Origin: Pegea sp. RAD2-039
Lineage: Eukaryota; Chordata; Thaliacea; Salpida; Salpidae
Reading direction: 5' to 3'
DNA: 64,000 nt
Assembly (NCBI GenBank): GCA_034620365.1
Contig: JAQGEQ010000332.1
Span: 310,001-374,000, forward strand
A program made the position numbers and the translations under genes. The notes below the pieces were generated by a model that was not told the DNA's origin, did no database searches, and saw only the letters and a program-made list of their open reading frames with translations. This document shows positions 8,161 through 63,115 of this stretch, in pieces; positions within the stretch are counted from its first letter, which is position 1, and every line of letters begins with the position of its first letter.

Positions 8161-8164
8161 ATGC

Positions 8165-22550: not shown

Positions 22551-22556
22551 CATCAT

Positions 22557-29222: not shown

Positions 29223-29950
29223 TAATTATATAAAAAATAAATTTTTTGAAAAAATTTTTGTAACTGATTTCTTAAAGTAAAAAAGTTATCACTAAATAAA
29301 TTAAATTGAATTATTTCTCCTTGTTAATTTTAAGAATTTTAAAAATTTGTTAAATTTATATTCATTAGTTTATTAGTTTATTATAAATAATTATTAGTAA
29401 ATACAATAGAAAAACTGCTTGGTTTGCCATGAGGTCAATTCAAGATCAAAAATGATATATTATTAAGAAGTTTTGTTTAAGGTTACTCTTTGAGAAATAA
29501 AATTTGATAAAAAAATATCAAAATAGAAAGCAAACTATAATCTAAAGATAAACTCATGAAAATATTTTATTTTTGAACACAATGATAATATAGATATAAA
29601 ATAATCAAGTTCACTGTATAAACCTAACCCAATCAAAATCAAAACTGTAATCCAAATTCTTGAAATTTATCTTAATTTGGCGTTTTATAGAAAATGAATA
29701 GAAATAAATACGACAATAATTTGAGGTTTTAATAATAATAATTTTAATATTTTTTAATAATAATTTTAATCAAACATTAATAATGTCAAAAATAATAACA
29801 GCTGATTTTACAAATAATAAAATAAAATGTATAAGGTATCTTGTTGGTTTAAGATGAATAAAGGTTTTTATCTTGTAAAATTATGGAGAGCTTTTTTAAA
29901 CCGTTTTAATTACTGATATCTGAGGAAATTTTATTTTTTTTATTGATGCT
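29223..29950. other. AT-rich spacer (copy of 7441-8160)
   Basis: Nearly identical to the copy 1 spacer with scattered substitutions. No gene seen. Confidence 0.6.
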
Positions 29951-30655
29951 GAATAATACATTTATTTATTTATTACAATGAATGCAAAGGAGGGTACCGA
30001 AAGAGAGTTCCTCTCACTAGCCTACATTCTCACAAATAACATATATTTAATACAAAGTATAGAAAGTAACAGATGTAAAACATGGTATTTCAATAGCACT
30101 CAAAGCATATAACTGTGAAAAATTACATGGAATGTTAAAAATGTATAAAAGGAAAAAAATCACAGTTTAGAAATAACAATGTTGGCAATATTATAACGGA
30201 TCAAATTCTGCTTGAACAACGTGAGCGACTTCGATATGGCAATGTTTGATGGCAGCTGGTTCCATATACTAATTGTGCGAAATGAGAAAAAATTTGCTAT
30301 AACCGATGTACCAGGTGATATTGGCTTATTAAGGTGTAATGGTTGTCGTTTGAGCAGAGATAACTTGAAGGAAGGACTAATGGAAAAGAGATAATCAAAC
30401 TGAAGGCCAATTAAATTGTAGATAATTTAAAAAATAAGAATTAAGTCGTATTTTATCTGTCAAATTTCTAAAGTATCTATATTGAAGAAACTGAGACGAT
30501 GTTTATAACTATCATAATTAATATTAAGTTTTCTTCATACTAATCTCGTAAATGTGGCCTGAACACACTCGATTTGTTAATATCACTAGCTTGATATGGC
30601 ATCCATTCACTAACATTGTATTGAAGAATACATAAGTGCATTATAAAAATAGATG
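29950..30655 (-). mobile_element. 5'-truncated LINE 3' end (copy of 8165-8870)
   Basis: Same truncation point and tail as the copy 1 element, so the insertion predates the duplication. The 60-codon plus-strand frame at 30212 is antisense RT. Confidence 0.8.
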
Positions 30656-31990
30656 GTTTGTAACGAGTGATGAAAAGATGAGTTTTATAAGCATTTTTAC
30701 TAGATAAAAAAGTTATATAGAATTGTGGTCATCTTAAATTTTATTTCAATTTGATTTTACTTTTTAACCGTTTGGTGGAACAAGGAGCACCCGTTACAAA
30801 ATCAATGATTCTGTTTGTTCAAATTGTCTTCATGCTGCAAATAAGCTGAAATTTGTTTCTAGTCAAAATATTTCCATAAAGAAATGCTAGAGCAGCTAGA
30901 AGGCTAGTAGTATTCAGAAGTTTGCGTGGCTTCTCACAAATTTAAAGTTAAATCAGATGAATATTAGTTTCAAGACAGGGTTTAGCATAGAACCTCATAT
31001 TTTAAATCAGAAACAGAAATACTTTGCTCATAAATCAGTATGCATCTCTATTTTGTATCTTGTAGATTTTTTATTCCAGGTGTTTTGTTGTTTCATACAA
31101 AGAGAGAATGAACAAAATGGTACAATGTTTTAAAATCTTTTCTTTTCGTTTTCTTGTTTGATTCCATTTTGAGAGATGACAATGAGTTCTAGCAATCAAC
31201 GATCTGTTTTTAATATTAATAGATGTATATCCTTAATAAAGATTATTACTAATTTAACAATAGTTTAAATAACTAATTTTAAGTCGTGGTAGTTTTAATA
31301 ATAGTTTACAACAATATTATTTATCAAATGTAACATGCCACAGTTTTTTTCAAAAAATTTATTTTTAAGATCGAATTTTGAGCAATATCTACAAAAACTT
31401 TTCCATCTATAATAAAAACATTGTTGTTTACAATATTTTTTGTCGTAAAGCAGAGATTAAGTAAATAAAAATGTTCTTATAAAAACTTTATTTTTGAACA
31501 TTGTTTTTAGAGATATATTTGAGTGTTCTTTATTGAAAAAGATGAAAACTTATATTGATAAATTTCATTAATTAAAGTCTTAATTTAAGCAATCCGATTT
31601 AATCTATCTTTTGAAAATGAGATATGCAAGTCAACTTGAAAGAAAAAAATTTATAAGGTAAATGTAAATGTGTATTAACATAAATTCGTCTAGGATTAAA
31701 GGTTTTTTGGCTAAAGAACTTTGTTATTGATCAGCAAGTTAATTTATTTTCTTTATCAAATCTAAAAAATAGAACTTTAGAAATGAGAACTTTAACTTTA
31801 AAATTTGGAAGATAAAAATTTTGTTTTCAGTTTTAATTTTATCATTTGATTTAATCTATTTTTACTTTTTTTTAAATTCATTTTAAAATTTTTAGCAGTA
31901 AATCTAATCATTTAAAACTATTATTAGATCTTTTTCTTAAGTTTCCTTTTTTAGAAATTTTTTTTTAACTTTCTTTTTTTCTGGTATTCC
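30656..31990. other. Spacer (copy of 8871-10205)
   Basis: Duplicated AT-rich DNA with a few per cent of differences; no gene identified. Confidence 0.5.
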
Positions 31991-32572
31991 ATGCCTATGG
32001 TTGTAGGCAAATGTTTTGATTTTATTTTGTTGAAGAGTATCCAGAAAATGTCTTTAATAAGGATGGATAAAAAGGTTTTTGAAAATAATACAAAATCTGA
32101 GCAATTAAAAGATTGGAAGATAAGACATAGTAGAATAAAGTTAGAAAAGTTTTTTGAAGTTCATTCTAGTATGCAAGATGTTGTGTATGGTTGCGAAAAT
32201 GGAAGCAAAGGATTCCGTATAAAGACAACCATTAGAATTATTGCAGGTAATACTTTAAAATATGAAGTGTTTATTCGTGTTACGTACGGTGAACAGTTCA
32301 ACTTTGTTGATAAAAATAATATAGAGAGAACGACCATATATGTTGGTACAGCAAATAAGTTTCGCTTGGAAACTAAGGATGACGTCATCGTTGGATTTAC
32401 TGGTTTTATAAGTAATCAACTTGGTTCCATTGAGTCAATATAGAGTTACGCTCTTACTTTAAATGATCTTCAATTAAGAAATTTAGTTATTTTTACAATG
32501 GAGTCATTAGAAACGTTCTTCAAAAATAAGTCTTCTCACGATCAAGTTGGATTACCTCAGATTGTTTACTGA
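31991..32572 (+). pseudogene. Second copy of the 193-aa gene, with a nonsense codon
   Basis: Aligned codon for codon with 10206-10787. A CAG Gln codon has become TAG at 32441-32443, after codon 150, just past the GFTGFISNQLGSIESI segment. The frame stays open beyond it to the same TGA at 32570-32572. Other changes include Glu to Ala, Ser to Asn, Ile to Thr, Gln to Glu and Cys to Arg, so several replacements accompany the stop. A 150-aa product lacking the last ~43 residues is possible, but I read it as a decaying duplicate. Confidence 0.75.
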
Positions 32573-34329
32573 TCACATGATGGCGAATAAGTAAACTTGT
32601 TTTCAATGTTTTCATTTCTTCGCTAATCTTTCACTATCCTTTCGTGGCAATATTAATTTTCAAAATTAAAATAATAACTTTGCTAGAGCTGTCTATAAAG
32701 CTTATATATCTTTCTATTTAAATCTCAATTAAGAAATAATTTAAAGTTTATCACTTTATCTACAACACTAAACACTTGAATAAGTTAAGTACAAACGTTT
32801 GTAATATTCTTACATTCTATCTCATTTAAAAGCTTTGAACATCTTAGTAAGCTTATTCTATCTCCAGAAGATTGTGTCTCTGCTGCTAATTAAAAGGTTT
32901 TATGTTTCATGACAAACAATTTTTTCTGTAATGATAAAAGTAAAAATGAAACTGTTTTAAACTTGTTGTGATTATGGTTAAGTTAATTTAATGTTAACAT
33001 CCATAAGTGCTTCAGTATAGAAAAGTTTAATGGTGTTATTAATTTTATTCTATATTATCTGACGATAATGTCCAAAATTAATAAATTTATTTACTAGTTT
33101 AGAAACCATCTTTGGCGCAAGCAACCTAATAAATTTCTAATTGAGAATATTCTTGTGAATTTTCAAATAATGAAATAAACCATAGAATAGAGTGAAAAGA
33201 AACAAAAGTAAGTTATTATTCAGAAAATTGTATTTATCATCCTCATAAAACAATTAGTACTAACAAGATGAAATAAGTATTTTCAACAACCTACAGAGTC
33301 AGTGAACTTCTTTAATCTGCTATTTAATTTAAATTGTCCAAGCTTAGTTTTATTGAGCTGATTAACATTAAAAATCTCAAATTATTCCAAATGAAGTTAA
33401 TTTAAACTAATTTTCTACGAAAGAAAAAAAATTAACTTTGCAGCCACCTAATCAGAACCAACTTTTTGATTGTGAATTTTTTTAGATTAATATGTAAATT
33501 AAACCGTAAGTCAACATAACTATTTGATAGAACAGAATACCTAACTAAAGTTGTTAAGTAAAAGTCTAATTACTTTTAGTTTAAGTTATTAGTTTAGTTT
33601 TAGCATTACCGCTGCTTTTTTACTAATAACTTCACAAATTATAAAACCAAAGAACTGTATCTAACTTTTAAAGTTTTAATAACTGGAGTTTCTCTATAAA
33701 TATCAAATAATTGATTACGTTAGTCTACGCTGAAATAGATATTACCTTAAAAATAATTTGTTATCAAAAAAACTTTAGAAAAATGACTGGAAAAATATCA
33801 ATATGATTGTATTTTTAATGAGTTAGATATTTTAATTCCAAGATTTTTTAAAGTTATTATTAAAAAAAATGCAGTCTAATTTGTATAAATTTTTACCAGA
33901 ATTAAATTGCGCGAAAAATATTAAAGACTAGAAAGCAGTGCTGTCCAACTTAAAAATCTGATATCTAAGAAATCTAACATAAATTGAATTAAAAAATTAT
34001 TCTAAACGTTACTTCAAAAATCTATTTTTCACACTTTTAAGAAATTTAATCAGCATGTAATCAATAATATCAGTATCTAATTAACAAAAACAAAAAAAAT
34101 TTTAGAGTTTAAGAAATCACTTTTATAAATAGGTGAATCTTTTATTCTACATTATGGCATAAAAACGTGTTACTTTTCAATGAAAAAACTCTTTCTTTTA
34201 AAAAAAACTATCAACCAAACGTTGTAGTTGTTTAGAGAAAAGATAAAGAATTATACTTCATTAAATAAGAAACATTGGAAAAATGTTTTTTTTAAACTAA
34301 ATCAAAATTTATCGTAGAGAAAGGCAATC
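32573..34329. other. Spacer (copy of 10788-12543)
   Basis: Duplicated AT-rich DNA; no gene seen. Confidence 0.55.
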
Positions 34330-34538
34330 TACTTATTGACTAAAAACAGGACTTTGGAGCAGTTTAGAAACAGATGGTCTTTCAGACTCCTTTATTTTAA
34401 AGCAGGAACTGACAAAAATTGATTATATCTTTATCTTTAGAAACAAAGTGTAAAACACTACTACAGTCTTTCTGCGTCCGATCATTTTTTAAGAGTTTGT
34501 TCTGGAATTTTCTAGAAGAATAAAGGCGATAAAAAGCC
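34330..34538 (-). pseudogene. Truncated 3' end of the pseudokinase gene
   Basis: Corresponds to 12541-12747, the last ~68 codons (C-lobe end) of the kinase-like gene. It carries an extra base in the run near 34417 and other changes that shift the frame. It is cut at 34538 by the duplication breakpoint, so no kinase core is present. Confidence 0.85.
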
Positions 34539-42067: not shown

Positions 42068-43236
42068 CCCAAAAAGACTTTAAAATCATAAGCTTTATCT
42101 TACAATGTATTAAAGATTATCAGGTAGAACACAACAAACTTGTGTAGAAAGGTCTTTATCTACTTCTAGTCAAAAAACTAGTGGTGTTCCTCAGGGTTTT
42201 GTTCTGGGTCCCCTTCTCTTTTTAATTGTAATCGAAGATCTCATCAGAAGATTACTAGCAGTCGATGATGTCAGTGTGTTGGTGTATGCATATGATATCA
42301 AGCTATTATCTTGCAATCCTTCAAAACTTCAAACTGCACTACACACGGTAGAAGACTGGTCTGCAAATTGGCAGCTCAGAATCCAGCCGACAAGGTCTGT
42401 ACTTATAACTTCGCCATCAATACATTTATTATTCAACGAATATCTTCGGTCGTAGACCTTGGCATTACTCCATCATCTGACTTTGAATGGCGAAATTAGT
42501 TTTCCAAATTCTTTGGAAAATCAATCAACCTTGTCTTCCTTATTATAAAGACCTTTAATTCCAAGGACCCAGGCTTTTTTATCCATCTTTTCAAATTGTA
42601 CGTACGTCCAATTCTTGAATACAATGTTAGTGTATGGATGCCATACCAAGTTAGTGATATCAAAAAAATCGAATGTGCTTAGGCCACATTTACAAGACTA
42701 GTACGTAGAAAATTTAATATTTAATATGATATTTATAAACAGCGCATCAGCTTCTTCAATTCAGATACTTTGGAAATTCGACAAATTAATTACTTAATTC
42801 TTATTTTTAAAATTATCCACAATTTAATTGACATTCAGTTTGATGATTTCTTTTCGATTAGTCCTTTCCTCAAGTTATATCAGCTCAGACGACACCCTTT
42901 ACATTTTAATAAGCCTATATCACCTGGTACATTTGTCAGAGCTAATTTTTTCTCATACTGCACAATTAGTACATGGAACCAGCTGCCATCAGACATTGCC
43001 ATGTCGAAGTCGCTCGCGTTGTTCAAGCAGAAGTTGAACCGTTATAATATTGCCAACATTTTCATTTCTAAACTTTGTTTTTTTTTCGCTTTTTTATATT
43101 ATTAACATTCCATATATTTGTTCTCTGTTATATGCTTTGAGCGATATCGAAACACCATGTGTGACATTTTTTACTTTCTATATTTTTGACTAAATAGATG
43201 TTATTCGTAAGAATGTGTGTTAGCGAGAGGTGCTAA
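42068..43236 (+). mobile_element. Degenerate LINE 3' half (RT core to 3' UTR)
   Basis: Plus-strand relic of the family at 61215-62840. Visible in order: the SGRTQ-like region, TSGVPQGFVLGPLLF (RT motif B), VYAYDIK where the active element has YADD, NWQL.IQPT, SVWMPYQVSD, then an open frame 42770-43105 ending in the 'TISTWNQLPSDIAMSKSLALF' tail region and 3' UTR. Multiple stops and a deletion after 'IQPT' (shared with the 62.9-kb relic) show that it is dead. Confidence 0.85.
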
Positions 43237-43631: not shown

Positions 43632-44611
43632 TTACACCCGCGGTGAAGAGTTGTTATCTTGAAGAATTTCGTTAGCTCTAACATAAAGATAAGCATTAGA
43701 TCTAACAGGATCTGGATGACGGTTTACTGGCCATGAAACTATTGGTCGTTGCTTTGGCCAGGATGTTCTTTCTTGGTATGGAACTTTTCCTCGCTGTTTG
43801 GAATACAAGTTGTAGGTAAAGACTGCAATAAATATAGGAGCTACTGCTGCTATCCAGTCAATCACCAGCATATATGTATTGTGTACTTTGAAGGTTGAAG
43901 GGTAACTTGCTGCGTAGACCAATGAAGATGTATATAAAAATCCTGCGTTTAGATAAATAAATTAAACTTGTAAATAAAACATTTTTTGATATAATTCAAG
44001 TGCAGAAATTATAGTTACACTTTTAAATATTATCCTATTATTTTTTAATGTTAGCTTAATTAAGTAATTCATAATAATTTTTTATTGCGAAATTAAAGTA
44101 GTTACAGTCAATAAAATAAAAACTTTTATTTTCACCAGCAACAGCATTTCCTATCCCACTAATACAATTAAGAGTTCTTTGTAACTTCTGATGATTATTC
44201 ATCCATGAGGTTAACAAGGCCATGGACGTAGTTAAGACTAGAATAAAAAGCGATGTCGAGATGCAACAACCAAATAGATTTTCTGCTGAGGTGTTTAAAA
44301 TTTATTTCTTTTGTTTTATGTAAAATATTTTTGTAATAAGTAATAACATTAAAAGATACATGTGTTGAAATTTTATTATACTTACATAGATATAATTCAA
44401 ACTTCATAAAATTACAAGTTAACGCATAATGCCAGTTTAAAAAAACAAATAGGAAAATTCACCGTTCAAAGAATAAGAACCAGAGCTGCATACATATATG
44501 GATTTATTATATGCAGAATGAGGAGTGATATAACTGATGATGAACATTATGAGCGTTAGCAAGCTCATAAGACAGATACATCGTCTGCCAGGCTGGCAAA
44601 AAGTTCTGTAG
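43632..44611 (-). CDS. Four-pass membrane protein, gene C (three exons seen, first exon not found)
   Basis: Joined minus-strand exons: 44611-44463, 44282-44136 and 43942-43632. Borders are TTTAAAG|C, AACG|GTGAAT, CTCAGCAG|AA, GCTG|GTGAAA and AACGCAG|GA. Phases are 2 (incoming), 1, 1 and the frame is open throughout. TM1 is CLMSLLTLIMFIISYI, followed by a loop with YVCSSGSYSLNG. TM2 is LFGCCISTSLFILVLTTSMA, TM3 is around GIGNAVAGFLYTSSLVYAAS, and TM4 is VIDWIAAVAPIFIAVFTYNL. A ~60-residue Pro/Arg/Asn-rich cytoplasmic-type tail ends in SSPRV. The topology faintly recalls FRAG1/DRAM- or claudin-type proteins, but no diagnostic motif is present. Phases and TM placement match genes A and B, which makes it a likely distant relative. 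The short initiator exon should lie above 44.65 kb. Confidence 0.66.
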
Positions 44612-44619
44612 CTTTAAAT

Positions 44620-46550
44620 AAAAAATAATTTTTCAGTTAATTATTTTTAACTTAGTATATATTTTAAGCATTTTATATACTTTGTATAATGTGTTTCAAT
44701 ATTAAAAGGAACGAAGTAATTCAAAACTAAAAAAACAATGTTACTACAAAATAATATCATAAACATTTTTCTTACATATCCATTGTCAAAAAAGTAAATA
44801 TTGATGTAATTATTCCCTTGCAACTTTCTCAAAAGTTACTGAACAAATGTCTTACAAATAAAATCACTGCAAAAAGTAAAATGATAAATTTTGAAATATA
44901 AACATAATTATAACAACAGGTTAACGTTATTTTTCAGTCACCTCTTATTGAGTAAAAAAATATCAAAAATATACATTCTTACAGCAACATGCAAAAACAA
45001 CAATACTATCTATCCAAATGGATTTTGCTATAAAACCATGTTGAACGAGCTTAAAACGACTGCAATGTACTTTAAAACTTAAGAAAAAGGCTGTATGGCC
45101 TAAGGCTGTAACTTTTTTGTGATAATTTTCCTAAGAAAATTTTGTAACGCCTGAAAAATTCCTTAAATATTATATAATACATGTAAATCAAAGTGTAATT
45201 TGTTGATTTGTGTAATTCTAATGCAGCTTGTAGTACATTTTAAAAGATTGTTTAATATAGCTTATCTAATCCAGTTAATAATTATTTGGTGACAATAATT
45301 AAATTGCCTATCAATATTTAAAGTTTAGATGTTTGAATATATAGACTTGATCTCACAAAGTATGAAAACAATTAAACAATAAACCTTTTCTCATAACGCT
45401 ACACTCTTAGCGTTTTAAAAAGGCGTACATGAAAAAACTCATACTAAGTTTTATATACAAAACATTTATATTTGGCCCAAATTTGTAACAAATTTATCTC
45501 AAATTTTGCGCCAAATTTGTTGTTAGCCAGTATTACCACTTAAAACCTTATTTCTAAAACGCACAGGTTTAAAATCAAATATTTATTATAAATCAGTAAG
45601 TGATTAATTCGTTAAAAAGTAAAAATAAGTAAAATTTTTATAAACTAGTACAAACTAATCACCTTATATATAAAAATTATTAATTAATTTCCAGACTGTT
45701 CTTATTTATCATACTGACTTCAAAGAATAAAGTGAAACAAGTTTAAACAACAAGTTTAGCAAAATTAGTCTTTTTAAACTTATAAACTTCCCAAGTGGTA
45801 ACAACTTTGTAAGAAAATATTAATTCAAAGTTAGTTTAACAGAAAAAAATTGATTTACACTTTATATCCTTGACATAAATTTTAATACATCAACAACACA
45901 AAAATAAAATATTTATTTTAATTAATTTATTTATTTTAAATTTTTATTTTAATTATTAATATTATTTATAATTAAATATTTATTTTTAATTTAGCCCTTT
46001 GATTAATACTATTTTTATAGAAAATATATTTTGGTCTTTTTAGATTTCATAAGATAGAAAAAGTAGATTATAGATTTTGGATACTGTTGACGTTCGAAAG
46101 GTGAAAAGTTCATAATAGGAAGTGCTGATAAATCACTTTTCGTTCATTATCTGGCGCCATTGAACTGGAAGCTACTCCTCTTGCAGACAAATCACATAAA
46201 TATTATTAACTTTAATTTTAAACGTTTAATATTAACCTAGTATCATAAAAACTGCATCAAACTTATGTAATGAAATGTAAGTTGACATATAATATAAACA
46301 ATTACTCGTTGTGCCACAGCTCCTTTTATTTTTTAAACTTTTCTTTTTTTTTTTTTTTTTTTGAATTTTTATTGAATTGTTCAATAAAACAGTAAACAAC
46401 TATTTATGGGACATTATGGAACATAAACATTTTAAGGAACTTGAAGGGAATTCCCCGATTAAGAAATTAATTTCAAACTCTCAAACAAATTAATTTTTAA
46501 ACAAATTATTTGGATGCTAGGCAGCAAACGACCATGACAACCACCAATAA
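44620..46550. other. AT-rich spacer upstream of gene C
   Basis: Short open frames at 44647-44832 (minus) and 44891-45082 (plus) have no recognisable features. 45896-45990 is extreme AT low complexity. A run of ~20 T at 46343-46364 may be a retroposon tail. Any first exon of gene C should be in this stretch. Confidence 0.45.
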
Positions 46551-46859: not shown

Positions 46860-49540
46860 CATTCTATAACATTTTGATAATAACATTAATAGGATATTAA
46901 GTAGCTATCGATTATAGCTGTGAATTGAATTTAATTTGGGTTATTTTAATAACAACGGCTAATTTTTTGTGTCTAAGTTTTTACAAACATATTTCAAAAA
47001 CTGATCACAATTAAAGCATCCCTTTTTAGTTTTGCCAAAAAGATATAAAATATAATTTTAGTAAAAAGTATAAAGCAAACTGTTTGACTGGCAGCAGATC
47101 ACTCAAAAAACGGCTGTAAAAGTAAATATTTTATTTTACAGTTAAAGTACCTTTTTAAACAAGCATTATATAAGCAATAATGTAAAATGTTATCATTACA
47201 AATTCTATTGTTAAAAAATTATTAAAATTGAAATTTTAAGATATATTCCTTCTGAAACCTTTTTTTTCAGAATTTAGTTTATTTCAGTTAAGATCTCTGT
47301 AGTTTATCACCGAAAATATCATTAGGATGTTGCATTTCACTTTACTATTAAAGGAATGACTTGAAAGTTTAAATTCAGGACAAATGATAAGAACTATGAC
47401 TGTAATTGTTGGCGCCAGCCAATTTGCAATTCTTTACCATTCCCTTTAGTTATACTATTGATTTGCATGGTAGATAAGAAGAAATTTAAACTGAGAGGTT
47501 TTCTGTGGTCCTTATCAAATGTTTTTGATAAAAATATTATTACTTTCATACTACAGATTTCAAAAGAGAAAAGTTTATTTTGAGATTAATTTAGTCAAAT
47601 CTTGAATTTTATTAAAATATATATAAATATATTTAAAATTTCAATTTTCAACCATTGAATCCGCATCTTTAATTAGCTTTTGCTTTACATTCAGTATTTC
47701 TTCAGAATTATTTGAAGTATAATTATTTTTTTTAACTCTAAACGGCTTAATTAGAAAAAAAGTTAATATACAAACTAAGGAGCTAAGATATTTTGCCATA
47801 ATTATGCTTTTACATAAGTAATAAACAAAACAAAGAGTTAGTTTGAGTGGTTTATTCTATTTTTTGTATGTTTTAGAAGAAATCACGTGACACGAAAAAT
47901 CTGTTTTGACAGTAAATATCGAAATAAAATTTATAATTGCTCATAATTAAAAAATAACTTCAACTCTCAAACATCAAACAGCTTAAAATACACGTTTTGA
48001 CCTCGTTTTAAATGTTATTACGGGTATTTTTTTACTGAATGTTACTAGTTTCTCATTATGTTTCATTTTTAATGGAACTAAGTTACATTTTTAGAGGTTT
48101 TTTCACTTGTTAAAAAATTGTTTTTATAGAAGTGCAGTTTAACAGATATTATATCAAATGGAACTAATGATACGTTGCAAAACAAAAAAGAGCGAATAAA
48201 AGGAATTATTAAAGAAATTGTTTGTTGAAGTTTCAAGAATATATTTAAAAAACTAAAAATAAATTAACTGCTCGACATAAAAAAGATTAATCTTTATTTT
48301 TACTTTTTTTGTATCTAATCATTCATTATCTATACCCTCAATCTGCTTACGCCCATCAGTATACTTTTTGGATATCGTTATCATTTGAAAATAGGCATTA
48401 CAACAACTAGACGTATAAATAACAGGAGAGGTTTAGACTGTCAATTTTCTTCAGAGGCGATTTACATCAGTTATATATTAATTAAATAGTTAATTATAAT
48501 GAAATAGATGATTAAATGATATTTAACAAAATATAATTAGATATGCTGGTGAAGTTATAAGAAAGAACTATTTTATTTAATGACTCAGTAATAGTTAAAG
48601 TAGTCTTTTCCATGAAATGTAATTTTGCTAATTTGAACAAAACCTTTCTACTCTCTATGCTTTACTAATTCCTCAACAGCTGTAGTGAGTTTTTAAGTTT
48701 AAAAAAAAATATCCTGATATGGTTTTCTACACTAGTTTCAGTTTTTAAACTTATTCAAAAAATTGTTGTTATTAAAGTGTTTTAAAGCTATAAGCAGGAA
48801 ATGAATTCAAAATTCTTCTTTCTAGAGAACTACCAAAGTAGTGCGACAATATAAAAAAAGCTTTCTTATTTCAAGAGGCTTATATTTTTAGTTTTATTTT
48901 TGCTAATTTGTTTTATTTCTGAGGATTTTTCTGGAAATTTTACTCTATATAAGTTTGGTGTTTCATAAAAGTTATAAAAATGATATATTTTTATAAACTA
49001 TAATTAGAAATCTGATTTAGATTTACTTTTAGAAGATATACAAATTTGATAATAAATAATTAATCATAAGATGTTTTGATTATAACTAAATATTTATAAA
49101 ATTAAAAATAATATTTTGACAAATATATAGCCAGTTTATAAGTTATCTTTGAAATCTGTAAATACTGATTTTATCAGGCGCCAAGTTAAGCTTTTTTAGC
49201 TATTCTGATTAAATAGATTTATGATTTTTGCCAAAAGGAAGTAGTTTATTGTAATTCAACATTATTCATATTAAGAGGTACCTTTGCCTAAAGTCAAATT
49301 TGCGAGATTCATTATCGGTAGAACGAATAAAAAATTAGAAATTCGTATAATCTTGATAAGGCCTAACATTTCCATTGCAGAACTTTGATAAGCTTATCAA
49401 TTTTATACCAATATTTATTTTGTCTTTTTGGTATCTGTGGTTTATGATGATACTTTTACCGAAGTGAATTGATTATGAATAAAACTAGGATAATTTAAAT
49501 AATTCTGACCAGTTTCTTTTTTTCTTTTAGAAAATAAACT
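46860..49540. other. AT-rich spacer, no gene seen
   Basis: About 2.7 kb with stops in all frames. At the end, TTTCTTTTTTTCTTTTAG|AAAATAAAC (near 49514-49539) is a good 3' splice site just before the gene A start codon. It implies a 5' UTR intron or a trans-splice acceptor. Confidence 0.5.
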
Positions 49541-49546
49541 TTCAAT

Positions 49547-50744
49547 ATGTTTTCCTATGAACAAATCGAAAGAATGATAGTCGAAATTGAAAACTGCGTT
49601 TTGATTGTAATAGAAAAGTAAGTTTAAGCTAAATAACAAGTTTTTTCTAAAAGAATTTCATATCAGATAATGTCTTTGATTTTCTAGCTTTATATGTAGT
49701 TGCAAGACCTAAAACGATTTATTTGTAATAAAAAATCTTTTATAAAATGCAATATTTGCTTAAGGTAATGTAATATTTGGTTGTAATCAATTAAAATATT
49801 TTAGCTCATCAGTTAAAATTTGCAATTAGTTAATTAGCTTTTACTAAAATGTTTAAAGTTGCCGTTTTACTGAGTTTCTGAAAGATGGCGCTTGTAATGG
49901 ATCATCACTTAAATGGGACAGTTTCTTTGTTGTAATTATGCAATGTACCCTTCTACTTTCACCAGTTTCTGGGTTCTTTTTTCTGGATATATTGTGGACA
50001 AAAAGTAAAATGTTGATCGAAGGTTAATTGAATAATACAACTTTTATATTATAACAACATTATATTTGTCTTATGTTTTTGGTTACTTTTTTTTAGTAAA
50101 TTATTAATTTATTGAGCAAACTAATTATTTTTGTTATTGACGATGATAGAAGAAAATTCAACCTTTGTTGCGTTAGCGTTGGTTGCAATAGGATTGGAGC
50201 AGATTTCATTAATGATTAGCATGATCATAGATTATTTCAAACTTTCTCCAATGAAGGTTTTTATTCTACAAACATTCATGCTTTGCTTGACTTGTTTATC
50301 AGGTAAGATAACGTTTGTTATCTGATTAAATCTTTTAAAAGATGCTAAATAAATAAAAAACTTTTTAGTTATTAATCTTTCATTTCTCCTATTCTCTTTT
50401 TCGATAATATCTTTTATATTATTTTATAATGTAATTTCAACATAAACAACTCAGCTCAAAAATTTACAAGAACTAACTTTTCCTAAGATATTACTTACAA
50501 TTCAAGCTTTTGTTTTTCAGTATCTTGTTTGATCGAAGGCATCCTTTTCCAGCGAGGTAGTCTTGAAGTAGACAATCTTTTGGTATTTTTTCTTTTTTGG
50601 CTCATACCAGCTTTTCAAGTTTTTTTGTGTGTCCGAACAAGTCTTGCAATTATGCATACTTATCATTTCTTTATTGCCGAACCAGAATCCTCCGACTCTC
50701 TTGATGAGCAAAAAGATATCAAAAAAATGGAAATCAAAGAATAA
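49547..50744 (+). CDS. Four-pass membrane protein, gene A (four exons, ~203 aa)
   Basis: Joined exons: 49547-49617, 49859-50022, 50150-50302 and 50521-50744. Borders include GAAAA|GTAAGT, GTTTAAAG|TT, GAAG|GTTAAT, GATGATAG|AA, TCAG|GTAAGA and TTTTTCAG|TA. Intron phases are 2, 1, 1. The start MFSYEQIERM gives a short charged N-terminus. TM1 (~42-66) follows SSLKWDS. TM2 (~84-107) is ALALVAIGLEQISLMISMI, TM3 (~113-138) is around ILQTFMLCLTCLS, and TM4 (~148-174) is LLVFFLFWLIPAFQVFLCV. A ~30-residue charged tail ends KKMEIKE. It is a clear paralog of gene B: FLK, SLKW, EE..TF, the QRGSLEVD/QAGSLDIN loop, W(L/F)IP and LAIMHT(Y/F)H are shared, with identical intron phases. Exon 2 has the weakest donor. 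No known family recognised; the protein is probably a small membrane scaffold or channel-like tetraspan. Confidence 0.75.
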
Positions 50745-52396
50745 ATTACAAAATTGATTATATTTGAAGTAACTTCGGAGTTAATAAAAAATAAATTTTT
50801 AATTGTTCATTATGTCAGCCAGTTGTCAGAAAAATAGTTATTAGATATTATGGTAACGAGATAGAATGCGAGTTTAGTCGATTGGATTGTGTTGTGTAAA
50901 AGTGGGTTTGAATCCTACTGTCTTCACAATTACAGCGTTCTGTTACGCCATCTATCGAACAAAAATATTTCTAAACTATAGGTTAAAATCGCTACTGCTT
51001 GGTGATTGCTTCGTGATATAAAAAGCTACAAAAGTAAACCCAGACAAAATAGCAATAATCCGTTGACTTTGACACTACTGTTTCTGGTATCTACACCGTA
51101 TCACTAGTAATAATAGATGAGGATAAGGAATAGTTAACCATATAATTAAAGCCAATATGCATGCATAAGGGAAGTATAAGTGCCAATGTACTATTTCAAT
51201 AGTCATAAGTCGGAACATATCATCTAAAAGCTACGATTCTGCTTTTAGGCGGTTCAGCGTATATACGGTTCAGCTGTATGACGTTTGACAGCTGTATCAA
51301 CATAAGCAGTACTGTTAGATAACGAGCTTTAATTTGATGGAAAGCTTTGTAGCTCTAATGTAATAGCATTTTAATACCATACTGTTAACTAATTTTTTTA
51401 AAGATTCTCATTAGCCAGTCAATAGCTATAGTGATTATATATCACTCAGATCAGTATTCATTAAAACAAAGAAGTACAGCAACAAAGAGTAAAAACTACA
51501 AATATGACAATTGGTAAAATAGAACAACACATAAATATTTTGTTAGGTAGTATTAGGAAATGGTAAATACCTTGAAGTCATTATAGGATCATATAAGATT
51601 TAAAGAAATTTTAAATAAATAGCTTCTTCAATTAAAGCATTGAATTTTTTTATTAATATAAAAAATTGTACTGATACGGGCTGTAACATTTTAAAGTTGT
51701 GTTTAAGGTAAATTTAGTGCATTAATCATGCTGGAAACATTTTTGGTTAAGAAGAAAAGTAAAAAAAATACTATTAACAATAATATTAAATAAGAGCAAC
51801 AACAGAAAAATACAATGATAAACTAGAGGTCCTAGAACAAGAAACTGTTTTAAAACAACTTGTAACGTAGAAAACAACAATACTTTTTTTACACTTACAA
51901 AAAACCTTTAAGGCCATTTCAAAATGTTTTTAATTTCAGATGAAAATTAACTTTAAAAATCATAGTTACTAGTTACTTCAAGTAAACAAAAAAAAAGTAG
52001 TCGTTCTTACAATTTTCGGTAGATTATATTTATTTTACAAAAGAAAGTTGTGCTAAGGTAAAGCAAATTAATTAAACTTTTGAAGGAACCCAGTAAAAAA
52101 ATTCCAAGAGAAATAAAAAGAAATACCATACATACCTTACAGCAATAAACTTTTTTAAAATTTTCTTGTCGACTGTGAATTTTATGACAAATTGTACAAA
52201 ATCATTACACTAGAAATATATTTCTAAACCTTTTTTAATATTTATATCTAAGGTAAATCAGCAGATAAAGATGATTTTGGAAATATATAGGTGAAGTATT
52301 TTACAAACAGGCCTTTTTTAATTTTAACCAAAATAGCACCAAATATTAAAATAGAACACTCAATCAAGAAAAAGGTTCTGCTTAAATTTTCATTAC
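50745..52396. other. Spacer between gene A and the nuclear-type gene
   Basis: AT-rich. 50845-50935 has a tRNA-Ser-like outline (see findings). The rest shows no coding signal. Confidence 0.5.
50848..50928 (+). other. Degenerate tRNA-like sequence (tRNA pseudogene or SINE head)
   Basis: Contains GTGGGTTTGAATCCTAC, a near-perfect T-arm: five-base stem, and a loop close to the B-box GGTTCRANTCC. About 50 bases upstream is GCGAGTTTAGTCGATTGGATTG, resembling the D-arm/anticodon arm of tRNA-Ser. No acceptor stem pairs with the 3' TGTCTTC, so it is not a working tRNA. Confidence 0.35.
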
Positions 52397-54583
52397 ATGT
52401 CTAAAGAAATTAGTATGGATGAGAAAAGTATTAGAAAAGAAATAAGAAGGAACAGTGAACAAGCTAAAGATTTTAATTGGAAGAAATCTCCTCATATTTA
52501 TTTTGATATTCAAAGTGGTGTTGAGAAAAAATCTGATAAATCCACTAATTCAGAGAACGAAGTTAATCCTGGAACTTACAATGAAGATCAACCGTTATCT
52601 GCTTTAAAAGTAGAATGGCAGGTCAAAAGTTTTGAAGAAAACCAGAAAGACATATCAACAGAAAAAATGTCATGTAAGTATAATAGATGTGGTCAGTGCC
52701 AAATTTTTCAGCACTTCATGACCTTTTTAATTAATTAGATGATGGAAAAAATCAAGACAAAAATAATTCTGAGGATGATGATAAGCCTTTATCGCAATAT
52801 GGATCCAGCAGCCACCGACAACAGCTTGTAAAAAGGTAAGTGCACAAATTTGTTATAATAAAGGTAAAAATGATATTTTTGTTTAAGATTTTTATGTTTT
52901 TATTTATATTTTTGTTGACAAATGTTTATAAATATTATATATTGTGAATGTTTCATTATATATTAGAAATTATAAAGCTCCTCTAACCTTTATGTTAAAA
53001 AATAATTAAAGTTTGTCTATTAGAATTTATTTAAGCTATAGCTTTTGTTTATCAGGTGGTTTCATCAAAAAATTATGTTTTGAAAATTTTTAATCCATAT
53101 ATTTTTGGATGATATTAAAGAAATTTATACAGAGATAGTTTTTATCAATATACTTCTTCTTATTTATAACTACAACTTTTCATGATATATTTAAATGAAG
53201 AATTGTATAATCTTAAATATTTAATAAGTAATTATTCTCTTTATTGTGGTTATAAATGTTTTAATTAGTATGATACTTATACTATGAAGTGATTTAATTT
53301 TACTGATATGGTAAAACTTGTTCCCTTTTTTAGCTTGACCTTGTAAGTTTTTAATTGTCAATTAAATTAATCTTAGTAATCTTCTTATATCCTATTAAAA
53401 TAATAGCAATTAAATATGAAGATAAATTTATAGATTAACTTAATAGTCTTGGTGTTTACTTTAAATTTGTTTGTCTTGGGGATATTGATTAATATAAAAA
53501 ATGAATACTCTTAAATCTGTTATGAGATCATATAAATACATCCTTAACCATTTATTTAATAAAATAGATTCATACTTTCTGATTAGTTAATGAGTTTTAT
53601 ATTGTTTTATAATGAAAGCTATTAACCATCTTAATAAGTTATTATATATTATTTTGAATTTGTTCTAAGTTACATGAAATCAAATTGTTATTTATCAAAT
53701 ATATTGTTACTTCCAAATACTTCCCCACATTAAAACATTATACTTGCAGTGAAGTTCCTGCTGAAGTTCGAACAAAAATTAGAGAGCAAGAAATACCACG
53801 CCGCCAAAAATCTTCTAGAGTTAGAAGAGTTCTACTGGAGCGATTGGTAGATAGTAGTGACTCATGCAGTTCAGTATCAGGTGATGAAAGAAGTGGCATG
53901 TTCCTTAGAAATAAGGATTGTTCAGAAAGTAGAGAATTTATTATTTCATTTAATAAGTCCAATCTTTAATCTCTCTAAAGAACCTAGGTTCTAATAAATT
54001 TGAAAAAGAAGTATAAAAATATAGCAAAAAAAGAGATATTGTAACTTTTTGGTAACTACAAGTAAAGCCTTACATTCAATTTTATTTATAGTTAAAGAAT
54101 AGATTTAATTCTTGATGTAACTTATATATTTCCTACAATTTTTTTTAATATGTAATTTGATTCAAGCTGTATTCTATGAACTATTTTGTCAACTTTGATA
54201 TATAATTTTGTTGTTGAATATTTAGATGTTATCGACTCTTTTATCTTTGTATCGTTTATGTTTCTATCCAACTTGCTATATATACACTTATTGTAAGTAT
54301 TTATAACTATTCTCATGATAGTGCGTCAACAAAGATCTCATATTTATCAAATCAAGCTAAAGTTATCGAATTTAGTTTCCTGCAATTATTTTTTTTTATT
54401 TCTAAATAGCTCACTTAAATTCAAAACAAATTATCAAGCCCATGAAGTTTGTGTAAATTTAAGTTCAAAGGAATGATTATTTTATTAATTACTTTTTTTG
54501 TCTTAGGTGAAGATTCTGATTGGGAACCAAGAGTCAAAAAGAAAAAAACTCGTCGTTCAAAGCCAAAGACAAAAGAGACTTGA
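52397..54583 (+). CDS. Four-exon gene, ~193-aa charged nuclear-type protein
   Basis: Joined exons: 52397-52673, 52739-52835, 53750-53880 and 54507-54583. Borders are TCAT|GTAAGT, TTAATTAG|AT, AAAAG|GTAAGT, TACTTGCAG|T, ATCAG|GTGATG and GTCTTAG|GT. Phases 1, 2, 1 keep the frame open to TGA at 54581-54583. The product begins MSKEISMDEKSIRKEIRR. It has an acidic/Ser/Asn-rich middle (NSEDDDKPLSQYG), then a basic segment EVRTKIREQEIPRRQKSSRV, a Ser cluster (VDSSDSCSSVSGEDSDWEP) and a C-terminal Lys/Arg block VKKKKTRRSKPKTKET that looks like a bipartite nuclear localisation signal. There are no membrane segments or zinc-binding Cys/His. It is largely disordered by composition. I do not recognise the family; a chromatin- or RNA-associated role is inference from charge pattern alone. 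Intron 2 is ~0.9 kb. Confidence 0.7.
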
Positions 54584-56750
54584 TTTGGAACCCCATATCT
54601 TTGAAGGAGATCATATATAAAAATGAAACTTTCTTAAATACAAAAAATGATATAATTTTAAATGCAATTTCTTACCCATTTCATTATAATTTTTTTAATA
54701 TAAACTTTTCTGCTACATAATATTTGCCGTCTTGGTGACAGTATAGAAACTTCTTAATTATGGGAAATCATTTTTTAAATTTATATGGTAGTTGCGATCT
54801 CTGTAATTTATTTTGATTATGTTTTATGATGTTAAAGTTACTTATTGAGTAAATTTAGTGCATGTTGCCATTATGACAGATTTTAATTTTTTTGCTATAA
54901 TATTCGTAAAGTTTAACAAACGTAGTATTCGTAGTATTTATTTCGAAGTTAGTCAATGCACAATAAACCTTCAAACAGTTTATAATGAAATCCATTTATT
55001 GGGTCTTTATGATTTTGTTTAGTTTTTTTATTCATCGAATAAAGGAATAAGTTACCAGTTTATAACAAGTTTTATTTTATAATAAGTTTATAACAAGTTG
55101 AAAATTCAGCAGTTGTTTTAAAGAAACAAAACTAAATTAAACGATCAAGTAGATGGTTGGAATGTCTTAGGTATATCATAATTTGAGATTAATACAGAAA
55201 AAAATAAACAAAGGTAAAATGAAAAATAGGAATAAAAACATCATAACAAATCAATTATTCAGAAAACTGCTCAAATCTTGTTTTGTGACAAAATTGTAAA
55301 AGAGTTGATAAATTTTGTTGTAGTATTAGATATTGTAAATGACTTTTAAACTTTAGTTATCTGAGTAAAAAACTGTTGCTTTACTTGGTGTTATTAAAGT
55401 TATTAATCAGTTTGATTAATTTTTTTATTCCTATTTTTAATTTTACCTTTGCTTCTACTGTGTTCATTTTTTCAGTTTTGAGCGTTGAAGATTTCAAGAT
55501 CTGTAATTATTTCGCATTGAAAAACGTTATTCCTGTCTAATGAAAGTCAGTTGATGCTGCGTCTTCGCTTAAAACTTTCTTTTCTACTTTTTTGACATTT
55601 GTTGGTGGCGAACTTGATGTGTCTTGATTGAAGCTGTAAAATAACGAACTTTGAAGAAGATTGAAGAGCAACAGATTTATATCAAAAAGTACTTTGTTGG
55701 CCCAAAAGTTTAAAAAACAAGTGTCATTTAATGATGCAAGCTCATTGTTATAAATATTAGAATGGGCAAATAATACTGCTTCGAGTAAAATTGCTGAAAA
55801 TGTTGTTTTCTATCTTTGATAAATTACAAAATCAACAAATAAGAGTGGGACTAATTGTATTATGATGGCGTTACACATGACCAAGCAATAAATATCTATT
55901 TTAAGACTTTTTACAAAAATCAGAAATGATCACTAATTTTTAGATGAGTCTGTACAGTCTTACATTTCATACTGAAAACATATTTTGAATATCTTACTTA
56001 ATTAGATAAAAACATTTAAAATTCCTTTTTATATTCTTTGAATAATTGAAAACACCTAGATTAGTTTGATTATACTTTACACTAAAATAAACTAAGGCCC
56101 AAATAAGCAGTCAAATAGCTATGAAAGAAATAGAAGTACTTTGAAAAAACAAAGAAAGAAATTTAAATCTTTAAGATTGATATTGGTGACGAAAGTGAAT
56201 TTTTATATTTAGTTTACCTGCTGAATTGTTCAATAGTAAAATTTAGGACAGGTTATCAAATTTTGGTTTATTCATTTAAATCTCTAAAATTGAAAGATTT
56301 TATTAATTTTAAAGTTAATTCAAATCAAAATTATTTACAATTTTTTAATGGCTCATAACGTTAAAGAGCTGAATTATTTTATTATTGAGGGTAATGGTAA
56401 TCATTTCTGTATCATAATGTGGTTCACGAAATACGGAGCTATGTGAACAAACAAAGCTGTTAAAGTAACTCTTATACTTATTTTAAAAGTATTTAGTATC
56501 GAACTTGAAAATTGACTAAAACTGTTTTGGCGTAACGAGAAAGGTGAGTTTATAGCTTCTACTCCTTAATAACAACTAAATTATATTAATATTAATTATT
56601 AGCTAATAAACAAATTCTGCAGAAATCATGTCGATGTTTCTGAGATTTTAATTCTCGAAGATATAAACAGTTAGAAAGGAATAGCAACTAGAGAAAGCTT
56701 TTATAAGAATAAAAGCAAATAAACTAACAAGTTGTTCAAGTCGTTCAAGT
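54584..56750. other. AT-rich spacer, no gene seen
   Basis: About 2.2 kb. It has some duplicated short phrases (tataacaagttttattttataataagtttataacaagttg near 55060) but no coding or RNA signal. Confidence 0.55.
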
Positions 56751-56751
56751 C

Positions 56752-57990
<1,239 letters not shown>

Positions 57991-57994
57991 TGGC

Positions 57995-58095
57995 TTTATA
58001 CTTTCTTAGTAAGAATTTCTACGAAAGAAGATTTTGCTTTAAGCAAAGAATCTACAAACGTATCATCAAAATTCGTACTCTTAAGCTATAAATAA
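57995..58095 (-). other. Possible terminal coding exon, unrecognised
   Basis: Minus strand: after a TATAGCTTAAG acceptor, ~28 open codons (STNFDDTFVDSLLKAKSSFV then EILTKKV) end in TAA near 57998. It could be the last exon of a minus-strand gene or chance. Confidence 0.3.
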
Positions 58096-58211
58096 AATGA
58101 GTAAAAACTTGTTTGTTGATTTTTAAATAATGACGTTAAGGTCTTGTAAAAAATTTCATATGTAAATATAAACTTAAAAAAATAATTTTTTAAGCACTAC
58201 AGTTTACAGAA

Positions 58212-58800
58212 ATGTCTTTTTGTAGAAATCAAACAATGTTTACAGTATTTACTCGAGCCCTGGGACATTCCAAAGAGATAGACGCCGCGCCATCCAACGC
58301 TTATATACAAAAAGTTAATCAAAAAGGAAACGTTAAAGTTAGTTTAATTTTAGAATTACTTTGTATGGGGTTTTTCTTCATTATATAGAAGTTTATTTAC
58401 TTTACATTAGTACGATCCCTTACAGAAATAAATATATTACAAACATTTTCTTAAAATATACAGCTTTTGTAATTTTTATGGTTGAAGCTACATGCAACTT
58501 CAATCACCTACTATTCACTGGTCTTGCACTCATTGCATCACTGATGGAGACGTTTCTATGTTTAAACAAATTTTGAACACTTAAGGCACTACTGAGCATT
58601 TCATGTGTTACAAAAGTAAAAGCTGTGACGAATCAAGTTTTAACTGAAACTTCCTGGACTAATTATATTAATAGTAAAGCTGATGAATACGCCTTAAGCG
58701 TAGAGGATATTTAGATGCAGAAAATGCGAGATGAAATTACAAAAACTATAAATTAACCTCTGAAAACTGTTGATGAATATGGAAAATATTCATGACTGTC
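58212..58800 (+). pseudogene. Possible decayed membrane-protein gene
   Basis: An ATG at 58212 opens 58 codons (MSFCRNQTMFTVFTRALG..., ending in the hydrophobic ILELLCMGFFFII) to TAG at 58386-58388. A second frame, 58361-58576, overlaps and continues with two hydrophobic stretches (AFVIFMVEATCNFNHLLF, GLALIASLMETFLCL). After a stop, further codons read TSWTNYINSKADEYALSVED. Read as one gene it needs a frame change and two stop bypasses, so I call it a decayed gene with several membrane spans. It lies 0.5 kb from gene B and might be a distant, broken relative. Confidence 0.35.
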
Positions 58801-59029
58801 TTTCAAATATACTTTACACTTACTTTTAGCATTAAGTAAAATATCAAGCTAAGGATAAAGTAAGATTTTCAATTAAAACTATTTTTAGTAGTTATAACTT
58901 CTACCTAAGATCAATTAATATAAAATCAGATAAAAATCAGACACACCAAGTATAATTTATACAGCGATATTTATTATCAGCTTTTAAAAATGCGAAATTT
59001 TTTAATTTTTTTAAATCAGAATTTAAAAA

Positions 59030-60162
59030 TTAAACAAGAGCAATATTTTCATTGTTCAAGACAGAGAATCTTCTATCTTTAATATAATAATGAAAAGTAT
59101 GCATTATAGCCAAGGTTAATCGAAAACATATAAGAAGATTCCACAACGGAATAAACCAGCAAATGAAATAAACAAAATAACTGTTTATATCTAAACTGCC
59201 AGCTTGAAAGATGATGTCCTCAAACATGAGTGAACCTAAAAAAAGGATATCATAGATCAAAATTAGTAACTTAAGAATTTCATTGTGATAGAAAGTTTTG
59301 GGTACATTTTTTCAGACTAAGATATTCTTTATACTCATTTGAAATATTAATTTAATCAAAAATAATTGATTAGAATTAAAACAATTAAAGCATAAATAAG
59401 AGATAAGCTTAACTTAAGTAAAACTCTTATCACGCTTCAATCAGATAAAAATACTTACTAGAAATGATGTTCAAAACAAGCATAGCTACTTGTAGGCTTA
59501 AAATATTTCTTGAAGAAAGTTCGAGGTGACAAAGTGTTATGCTTAATGTCAACGATATCAATTGCAGCAAAAGAGTTGACACTGCAATCAGGATAAACGT
59601 TGCTGCCTCCTCATTCATAAGCTCTGATAAATGTTTGCAAATTTATAAGTAATTCATCGAAAATATGATTTATTAGGAGAATTATTTTTCAAATAAACAC
59701 TTTTACTGACTTACCAGTTATCAATATGTCATCCTTTTTCTCCGATTTTTTCTCAGAAGTAAAGTTGGATATAGGTACAAATAGCAATATACCATGTAAC
59801 AGAATTATTAAACCGTTATTCCATTTCAGGGATGGACCAGTCCAAGCTTTATTCTTCAAAAACTGAAGACACCTGCTTTTTAAGAGTTTGATAAAACAAT
59901 CTATCCAAAAGTTATCTTTAGAAAGGTGAACATAAAGATTACAGTTATGCAGAAATATTTAAATTCAGTTTATAAAATGAACATAGATAGTAACTTTGTT
60001 AGCGCTTGCCCATTACTATACTCGCTATTTTTTAATAATTAGTTGCATTAAAAATTACCAACAGAAATATTGTTCAATAAGATAATTTCGTCATATCCTA
60101 GATAGCTAAGTAAGCAATTAAACTTACCTGTCATTGATATTGATATCTTCATCATCTGACAT
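59030..60162 (-). CDS. Four-pass membrane protein, gene B (four exons, ~187 aa)
   Basis: Joined minus-strand exons: 60162-60128, 59872-59715, 59623-59459 and 59235-59030. Borders: GACAG|GTAAGT, AAAAGCAG|GT, AACTG|GTAAGT, TTATCAG|AG, TTCTA|GTAAGT and TTTTTTAG|GT; phases 2, 1, 1. The start MSDDEDININD is acidic. TM1 follows GPSLKW (NGLIILLHGILLFVPI), then a Lys/Ser loop. TM2 is FILIAVSTLLLQLISLTLSI, TM3 is ILSLQVAMLVLNIIS, and TM4 is SYFVYFICWFIPLWNLLICF. The short tail YYIKDRRFSVLNNENIALV is basic, then polar. All donors are strong GTAAGT. It is a paralog of gene A (shared motifs listed there) in the opposite orientation, ~9 kb away. Function unknown; with four spans, a short N-terminus and no Cys pair in the loops it is not a classic claudin or tetraspanin. 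Confidence 0.8.
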
Positions 60163-60924: not shown

Positions 60925-61215
60925 AATTATTGTCTGGAGATTTCCCTGACTCAACATCTCACTTTTCTTAATGAGCTTACTACTAATTAACATGGTAATG
61001 TGTAAAATCATAAACCTCTATTTTGCAAAAGCGTTTGATTCTTTCTCACACAGCAAACTCATTACTGCATTGAAAACCCTAAAAATCTATAGCTTTATAT
61101 TACAGTGGATTGAAAATGACTTATCCCAACAAGCTCGTGTAAAAAGATATTCATTTACTTCTAGTCAAATTACTAGTGGTGTTCCTCAGGGTTTCGTTCT
61201 GGGTCCCCTTCTCTA
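60925..61215 (+). mobile_element. Older LINE, left half, split by the element at 61215-62830
   Basis: Plus-strand RT fragment: LTQHLTFLNELT, then YFAKAFDSFSHSKLI (motif A region, with Asp kept), then TSGVPQGFVLGPLL ending abruptly at CCCCTTCTCT (61214). The next part of the domain resumes at ~62834. Confidence 0.82.
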
Positions 61216-62830
61216 TTTATTGATTTATTTATTTATTAAAATAAATGTGAATGAGGGTGCCTAAAGAGGGCACCTCTCGCTAACACACATTCTCACAAAT
61301 TAGATCTATTTGACGTGTAAACGAAAAAGCATATGACAATGAAGAATTGCACAGAATCATAGTATTGTAAAAGAGAAAAATTCACAGTTTAGAAATGGCA
61401 ATCTTGGCGATATTATAACAATTCAGCTTTTTTTGAACAACACAAGTGATTTTGACATGACAATCTCTGATGGCAGATTGTTCCATGTACTGATTGTGCG
61501 GTATGAGAAAAAAATTAATCTTGTTAACGTAGCTGGTGGAGTGGGCTTATTAAGATGTAATTTATGTCTTCTAAGTTGATATAACTTGAGGGAGGGACTA
61601 ATGGAGAAAAAGAAATCATCAAACTGAAGATCAATTAGGTTGTGAATAATTTTAAAAATCAGAATATGGTCGTATTTAATTCTTCGGATTTCCAAAGTAT
61701 CTAGATTGAAGAAGCTGAGACGATGCTTATAACTCTCGTATTTGATATTAAGTTTCCTGCAAACCAATCTCGTAAATGTTGCCTGAACAGATTCGATTTT
61801 TCTGATATCACCAACTTGATATGGCATCCATGCACTGACATTGTATTCAAGAATAGGGCGTAGGTACAGTTTGAAAAGGTTGACGTAAAACCATGGATCT
61901 TTAGAATTAAAAGTCTTTATGATGAGGTGGACAAGCTTGATAGATTTTCCAAAGATTCTGGAAACATAACTGTGCCATTTGAAGTCAGATGTCAAAGTAA
62001 TGCCGAGGTCTATGACTGAGGATACTCGTTCAAGAATAGATCCATTGATGTAGTATTGGTTGCTGAAGTTGGCAGCTGGCTTACGGGAGAATGTTATAAC
62101 TTCAGACTTTGTTGGCTGGATTTTAAGTTGCCAATTCGCAGACCAGTTTTCTACAATATTTAGTGCAGTTTGGAGTTTTGAGTGAGAACCAGATAATAGC
62201 TTGATGTCGTCTGCATACACAAACACACTGACATTGTCTACTGTTATTAGTCTTCTGATGAGGTCTTCAATGAAATTCAAAAAGAAAAGTGGACCCAGGA
62301 CGGAACCTTGAGGAACGCCGCTGGTGACTTTACTAGGAGTAGATAAAGATCTTTCTACACGGTTTCGTTGGGTTCTACCTGATAAGAAATCTTCAATCCA
62401 TTTTAAGATAGAGTTGCTGATTTTTATGATTTTCAATACAGTAATGAGCTTGTTGTGTGGAACAGAATCAAAAGCTTTAGCAAAATCAAGGTATATGATG
62501 TCACATGGAGTATTACTTTCGTAATGAGCTGTAAGCTCATTGAAAAAAGTGAGATGTTGAGTCAAAGAAGATCTTTGCTTAACAAAGCCATGCTGGACAT
62601 CAGATATTAGATGATGCTTCGTCAAATGGCTAGTTATATGGTTGTGAATGATATGTTCTTGAGTTCTGCAGATAACCGAAGTCAGCGAAACTGGTCTGTA
62701 GTTAAGTGCAGTGTTTCTGGGAGCCTTCTTATAAATTGGAGTAATAATAGCATTCTTCCAAATTTGTGGAAGTCTTCCCTTCTTAAGAGTCATGTTAAAG
62801 AGTAGCGATAAGGGTAGCGCTAAAGAAGAA
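61215..62830 (-). mobile_element. Younger 5'-truncated LINE (CR1/L2/Jockey-like) with intact RT core
   Basis: Minus-strand element with 3' terminus at 61215-61300 (ATTTATTGATTTATTTATTT tail, then the 3' UTR shared with the copies at 8165, 18935 and 20350) and RT ORF 62793-61423. The 5' end lies around 62815-62835. It is inserted into the older plus-strand copy in the opposite orientation. It is the best-preserved member in the window and can serve as reference for the others. Confidence 0.88.
61423..62820 (-). CDS. Reverse transcriptase, C-terminal part of LINE ORF2
   Basis: An open frame of 456 codons from the Met at 62793; the frame actually stays open ~9 codons further up (SLALPLSLLFN), so that Met is internal. 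RT motifs: PIYKK and NYRPVSLTSV (~20-40), CDIIYLDFAKAFDSVPH (catalytic Asp of motif A), TSGVPQGSVLGPLFF (motif B), FVYADDIKLL (catalytic YADD), then LGITLTSDFKW and the C-terminal WMPYQ..., ISTWNNLPSEIVM. The endonuclease is missing through 5' truncation. The final residues run ...LFKKS and stop, whereas relatives continue FKQ.LN.YNI; an extra A in an A run near 61430 explains it. It makes cDNA by target-primed reverse transcription in the parent element; this copy cannot mobilise itself without the endonuclease. Confidence 0.9.
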   Translation of the reverse strand, partial: ALPLSLLFNMTLKKGRLPQIWKNAIITPIYKKAPRNTALNYRPVSLTSVICRTQEHIIHNHITSHLTKHHLISDVQHGFVKQRSSLTQHLTFFNELTAHYESNTPCDIIYLDFAKAFDSVPHNKLITVLKIIKISNSILKWIEDFLSGRTQRNRVERSLSTPSKVTSGVPQGSVLGPLFFLNFIEDLIRRLITVDNVSVFVYADDIKLLSGSHSKLQTALNIVENWSANWQLKIQPTKSEVITFSRKPAANFSNQYYINGSILERVSSVIDLGITLTSDFKWHSYVSRIFGKSIKLVHLIIKTFNSKDPWFYVNLFKLYLRPILEYNVSAWMPYQVGDIRKIESVQATFTRLVCRKLNIKYESYKHRLSFFNLDTLEIRRIKYDHILIFKIIHNLIDLQFDDFFFSISPSLKLYQLRRHKLHLNKPTPPATLTRLIFFSYRTISTWNNLPSEIVMSKSLVLFKKS

Positions 62831-62833
62831 GTA

Positions 62834-63115
62834 CTTCAGAAGAATAGTAGCAGAAGAAAATGTCATAGTGTTTGTGTATGCAGATGATATCAAGTTATTA
62901 TCTTGCAATCCTTCAAAACTTGAAACTACACCTGTATGAGTTACGAAAACTGTAGAAAACTGGTCTACGAATTTGCAGCTCAGAGTCTATCAATGGAGTT
63001 ATTATTTAACGAATATCTTTGGTCCTAGACCTTTACATTGCTTTATTATCTGACTTTAAATGGCACATTTATGTTTCCAATATCTGTAGAAATTCAATGA
63101 AGCTTATGATATATT
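62834..63115 (+). mobile_element. Older LINE, right half
   Basis: Resumes the plus-strand RT: TTTGTGTATGCAGATGATATC encodes the FVYADDI motif, followed by NPSKL.T, ENWSTNLQLRV, then a deletion and the LTSDFKW region. It ends near 63115. Together with 60925-61215 it is one element, minus ~15 bp at the junction. Confidence 0.8.

Follow-up and report, generated by a model that had tools for sequence, protein, structure and literature searches.

To which family do the small four-pass membrane genes clustered in one stretch of the genome of the salp Pegea sp. RAD2-039 belong? The stretch, below called the window, comprises the 64,000 nucleotides from position 310,001 to 374,000 of contig JAQGEQ010000332.1 (C43:310001-374000 of a 105.7 Mb, 387-contig genome) and has a GC content of about 22-33% per 2 kb step. 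An initial annotation had reported two spliced paralogs here (genes A and B) and a far more diverged third gene (C), and had left them in an unknown family. We compared the exon plan of these genes, and of a further paralog (D) located 12 kb outside the window, with that of known four-pass families. On balance we favour the view that A, B, D and probably C are a diverged branch of the PMP22/claudin/LHFPL superfamily in which the first outer loop no longer carries its signature, and that A, B and D, probably also C, arose through local duplication.

Results

The spliced models of A, B and C were re-derived from the DNA and then checked by script (Table 1). Gene A, on the plus strand, joins four exons into a protein of 203 aa, and gene B, on the minus strand, four exons into a protein of 187 aa. 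All introns in the models of A, B and C are GT-AG, although the second donor of A (gttaat) is weak, and the joined frames are free of stops. A and B stand where they had been placed, as intact spliced four-pass paralogs with introns of phase 2-1-1 as claimed, and D joins them as a third paralog with introns of the same phases. Frame, splice sites and phases are all kept among A, B and D at just 28-37% protein identity. Four hydrophobic windows were found in each of A-D, two of them weak (1.31 for span 3 in C, 1.44 for span 4 in D), and the C-terminal residue is Val in B, C and D and Glu in A. Further members were sought in 124 kb (the window and L016-L021) with A/B/D and A/B/C/D profiles, and only the exons of A, B and D passed, besides those of C, which pass the A/B/C/D profile by construction. 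The best candidate after the known exons, an ORF at 48319-48486 with 10.7 bits, reads as noise and was rejected as an extra member.

Each of A-D has one phase-1 intron 6-12 residues before span 2 and another 9-15 residues into span 3, and the same plan is found in the claudin genes of this genome, which also contains tetraspanin and LHFPL genes. A search of the genome with PF00822 and PF13903 gave 15 and 6 rows, respectively, at E up to 10, corresponding to 14 distinct loci. Seven of these were modelled as a claudin panel (C12, C83, C30:948 kb, C80:64 kb, C11, C48 and C3), in part incompletely, the models of C83 and C3 being without 5' ends and that of C48 without its 3' end. C121 and C80b had wrong first-exon joins and were kept outside the panel, their span-3 junctions being read separately. 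The panel genes were the only candidate loci scored against Pfam as spliced proteins, and all seven exceeded the PF00822 gathering score; a profile of six of them retrieved claudins and TARPs from the PDB (claudin-3, E 2e-28). All panel genes (7/7) carry a phase-1 intron within the first outer loop, 4-10 residues before span 2, and another in the middle of span 3. The latter was read at 11 of the 14 candidate loci; at C80b and C42 two phases are open over a short stretch, and the one reading as a span was chosen. The junction is unclear at two loci, C371 (acceptor only) and C21 (ambiguous), and span 3 is uninterrupted at C30:1560 kb (L035), which is above the cut-off together with its neighbours. 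The frame of this claudin-type gene without the usual span-3 intron (C30:1558600-1561677) ends in ...DVYV, which is PDZ-ligand-like.

A-D are small proteins with four hydrophobic spans, as in the PMP22/claudin family, and the likeness extends to the spacing of the introns, 50-55 residues lying between the two phase-1 introns in A-D and 43-55 in the panel. In an alignment of 11 proteins made blind to introns, every span-3 intron falls within columns 184-187; 10 of the 11 (A-D and six of the seven panel genes) also share a span-4 Trp. Splice variants of human PMP22 are named c.78+1, c.179-1, c.319+1 and c.320-1, and p.G107Vfs gives Gly as residue 107, in PMC9321036 and PMC10545620; going by these names, the human introns are therefore of phase 0, 1 and 1, the last one splitting codon 107. 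The PMP22/claudin genes of the salp and human PMP22 have this 1-1 exon plan in common, and for this reason we regard the family as probably a diverged branch of the claudin superfamily. When three introns were placed at random in a simulation, both claudin windows were matched in 0.23-0.31% of trials, a lenient, post-hoc figure, as the windows were made wide enough to hold the observed cases. The three paralogs A, B and D are counted as a single case. Small residues at the span-3 junction were discounted as evidence, being largely a product of the donor consensus. The paired phase-1 introns were derived as a superfamily criterion in this analysis and are not a textbook marker, and one claudin locus (L035) is without the second; no paper using intron phase or position as such a marker was found by title or abstract opening, and prior publication is possible.

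The plan is not that of the control families. In tetraspanins (PF00335), which have four spans like A-D, a phase-0 donor lies at the border of spans 2 and 3 in all six loci read (20 matched places), and span 3 is in one open frame in L048, L049, L050 and L053, also in L047, where the frame is open throughout; L054 and L056 are excluded from this span-3 reading. A-D show neither a PF00335 match nor a phase-0 intron at that border. The second loop of tetraspanins is large and cysteine-rich. In MARVEL genes span 3 is in one open frame at three loci (4 matched places). The genome's LHFPL gene (PF10242) shares the phase-1 intron in span 3 with A-D, but its match stays in a single open frame across the first loop, with no stop-containing intron there, and the LHFPL profile has no match among A-D. 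Differences from the claudins were also seen at the 5' end: A, B and D have an extra phase-2 intron before span 1, where human PMP22, going by the variant names above, instead has a phase-0 intron at c.78, and five panel genes, unlike A, B and D, start in the span-1 exon (by the chosen start codon).

The sequences themselves do not support claudin membership. None of A-D has a Pfam match above cut-off, and searches with PF00822 and PF13903 gave no row for any of them at E up to 10, although HMMER filters discard most weak matches; likewise, neither Pfam nor a PDB profile, hhalign or shuffle tests matched A, B and D to claudins. The claudin motif of the first outer loop, W-GLW-C-C, belongs to a loop that seals or lines paracellular pores. 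It is absent from A-D on reading, the nearest being ILW alone in A and a CSS...GCC stretch in C, whereas GLW or GLF with Cys is present in the claudin panel. Because these sequence tests failed, we have kept A-D out of PF00822.

Other sequence searches were equally empty. Against PDB sequences, phmmer with B and C and the A/B/D profile gave nothing credible, the best rows (B at E 1.5; C at E 0.019, to titin) being dismissed, and nothing credible was found for A-D in PHROGs and NCBIfam (best rows E 0.053 and 0.012, respectively, with one member each). Weak Pfam matches of A, B and C to GCK, GtrA, DUF2254 and Chromate_transp are under the cut-off and were rejected. So were a viral origin (51 pattern stretches of the A/B/D alignment against viral contigs, 0 confirmed) and a bacterial one (119 stretches against prokaryotic contigs, 0 confirmed). 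The description as an unknown family thus holds at the sequence level, but the exon plan points to a well-known superfamily.

Gene C had been grouped with A and B, with matching introns of phase 2-1-1. Its four spans and two phase-1 introns agree with this, but the phase of its first intron is a guess because the upstream exon (Table 1) is unproved; C could alternatively start at an internal Met inside the span-1 exon. Sequence kinship of C to A, B or D was not detectable, nor did C have any other match in the whole genome. Its grouping with A and B, neither proved nor excluded, draws only on gene structure and nearness. That C is a separate diverged claudin-type gene lying by chance 5 kb away is a real possibility, if not our choice, and compatible with the superfamily origin proposed here; against it, C shares the cluster and the 1-1 exon with A, B and D, and the length of this exon is close (50 vs 51-55 residues).

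Table 1. Exons of genes A, B and C, in positions of the window.
Feature	Position	Strand	Remarks
Gene A exon 1	49547..49617	+	Phase 2 donor; open frame, donor gtaagt
Gene A exon 2, span 1 and first outer loop	49859..50022	+	Alignable to B and D (LKW); phase 1 end
Gene A exon 3, span 2 and first half of span 3	50150..50302	+	Phase 1-1
Gene A exon 4, remainder of span 3, span 4, tail, stop	50521..50744	+	tblastn of genome: E 3e-10 to B
Gene B exon 1	60128..60162	-	Phase 2 donor
Gene B exon 2, span 1 and first outer loop	59715..59872	-	
Gene B exon 3, span 2 and most of span 3	59459..59623	-	Phase 1-1
Gene B exon 4, end of span 3, span 4, tail ...ALV, stop	59030..59235	-	
Gene C candidate first exon ATGGATAT	44776..44783	-	Speculative, 8 nt; basis only donor gtaaga and fitting phase
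Gene C exon, span 1 and first outer loop	44463..44611	-	
Gene C exon, span 2 and first half of span 3	44136..44285	-	Phase 1-1
Gene C exon, remainder of span 3, span 4, long basic tail ...PRV, stop	43632..43942	-	

Other features were noted in the window. Exons of a RIO-domain kinase lie between A and B at 57250-57628 on the minus strand (PF01163, E 1e-12 and 1e-5), beside a 22/44-base repeat array of AACCATCTACCAACCAATCAGC-like units at 57738-57976. A direct duplication (window 1-12746 vs 22503-34536; 9.1 kb at 97.6% and 3.7 kb at 96.3% identity) includes TGTTTATC-type minisatellite arrays and ORF copies at 10170 and 31955, the first of which is without a Pfam match. A protein kinase ORF in a single frame is found at 12544-13815 (-; 423 aa, PF00069, E 2e-46). 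A reverse-transcriptase ORF at 61423-62835 (-; PF00078, E 6e-37) belongs, judged by eye, to a non-LTR element. Near 42114-43105 and 60950-61264 lie fragments that by eye look related to it.

Discussion

The exon plan of A-D is not strange in itself, being that of claudin and PMP22 genes; it is the divergence of the sequences that is unusual enough for modest interest. The same divergence could be read as the mark of an orphan, lineage-specific four-pass family formed by A, B and D, unrelated to claudins and with an intron plan owed to chance or to a common four-span trick. The failure of every sequence comparison with claudins suits that explanation. However, it would have to account for both phase-1 introns standing at claudin places, rarely matched in our post-hoc simulation, for a plan not found in the loci read of tetraspanins (six) and MARVEL genes (three), and for a span-4 Trp that can be aligned with claudins, and we consider it unlikely. 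It is very doubtful that the models do not represent real genes: they are known from DNA alone, and the second donor of A and the first exon of C are weak, but frame, splice sites and phases would hardly be kept by chance across three paralogs of such low identity.

Membership of A-D in another known tetraspan family (tetraspanin, MARVEL, pasiflora/fire exit or Frag1/DRAM) seems improbable as well. The number of spans and the size of the proteins agree, and the pasiflora and fire exit tetraspans of arthropods and others are, according to PMC4582180, likewise small four-pass proteins with claudin-like topology and no claudin sequence similarity. Still, A-D have no Pfam match above cut-off, the exon plans of the tetraspanin and MARVEL loci read are different, and A-D lack both VxSQYQ and the PW with which span 3 of the pasifloras begins.

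As a diverged claudin-superfamily branch, A, B, D and probably C would be expressed as plasma membrane proteins with both ends in the cytosol. The four-helix bundle may pack in cis, laterally within a single membrane, against copies of itself or against partners, and by analogy with PMP22/EMP, TARP and pasiflora-type tetraspans it may organise or escort partner proteins at cell contacts or channels. A role in paracellular sealing or pore formation is unlikely because the claudin W-GLW-C-C loop is missing; the genes probably encode membrane-organising partners rather than paracellular pores. The terminal Val of B, C and D might conceivably bind a PDZ scaffold. We put forward tentatively that this is a lineage-restricted claudin branch which shed the first-loop signature and all its recognisable sequence identity, gained a phase-2 intron of its own, expanded in one cluster and took on a new, non-barrier task, which would leave the intron skeleton as the only means of tracing it.

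If A-D were merely an orphan family, the finding would be of local interest. If the superfamily origin is true, conserved intron positions can place orphan four-pass proteins in the claudin superfamily after the sequence signal has faded, and the superfamily gains a branch without the pore-forming loop. This would also be an aid in sorting the 'lineage-specific' tetraspan genes of invertebrates.
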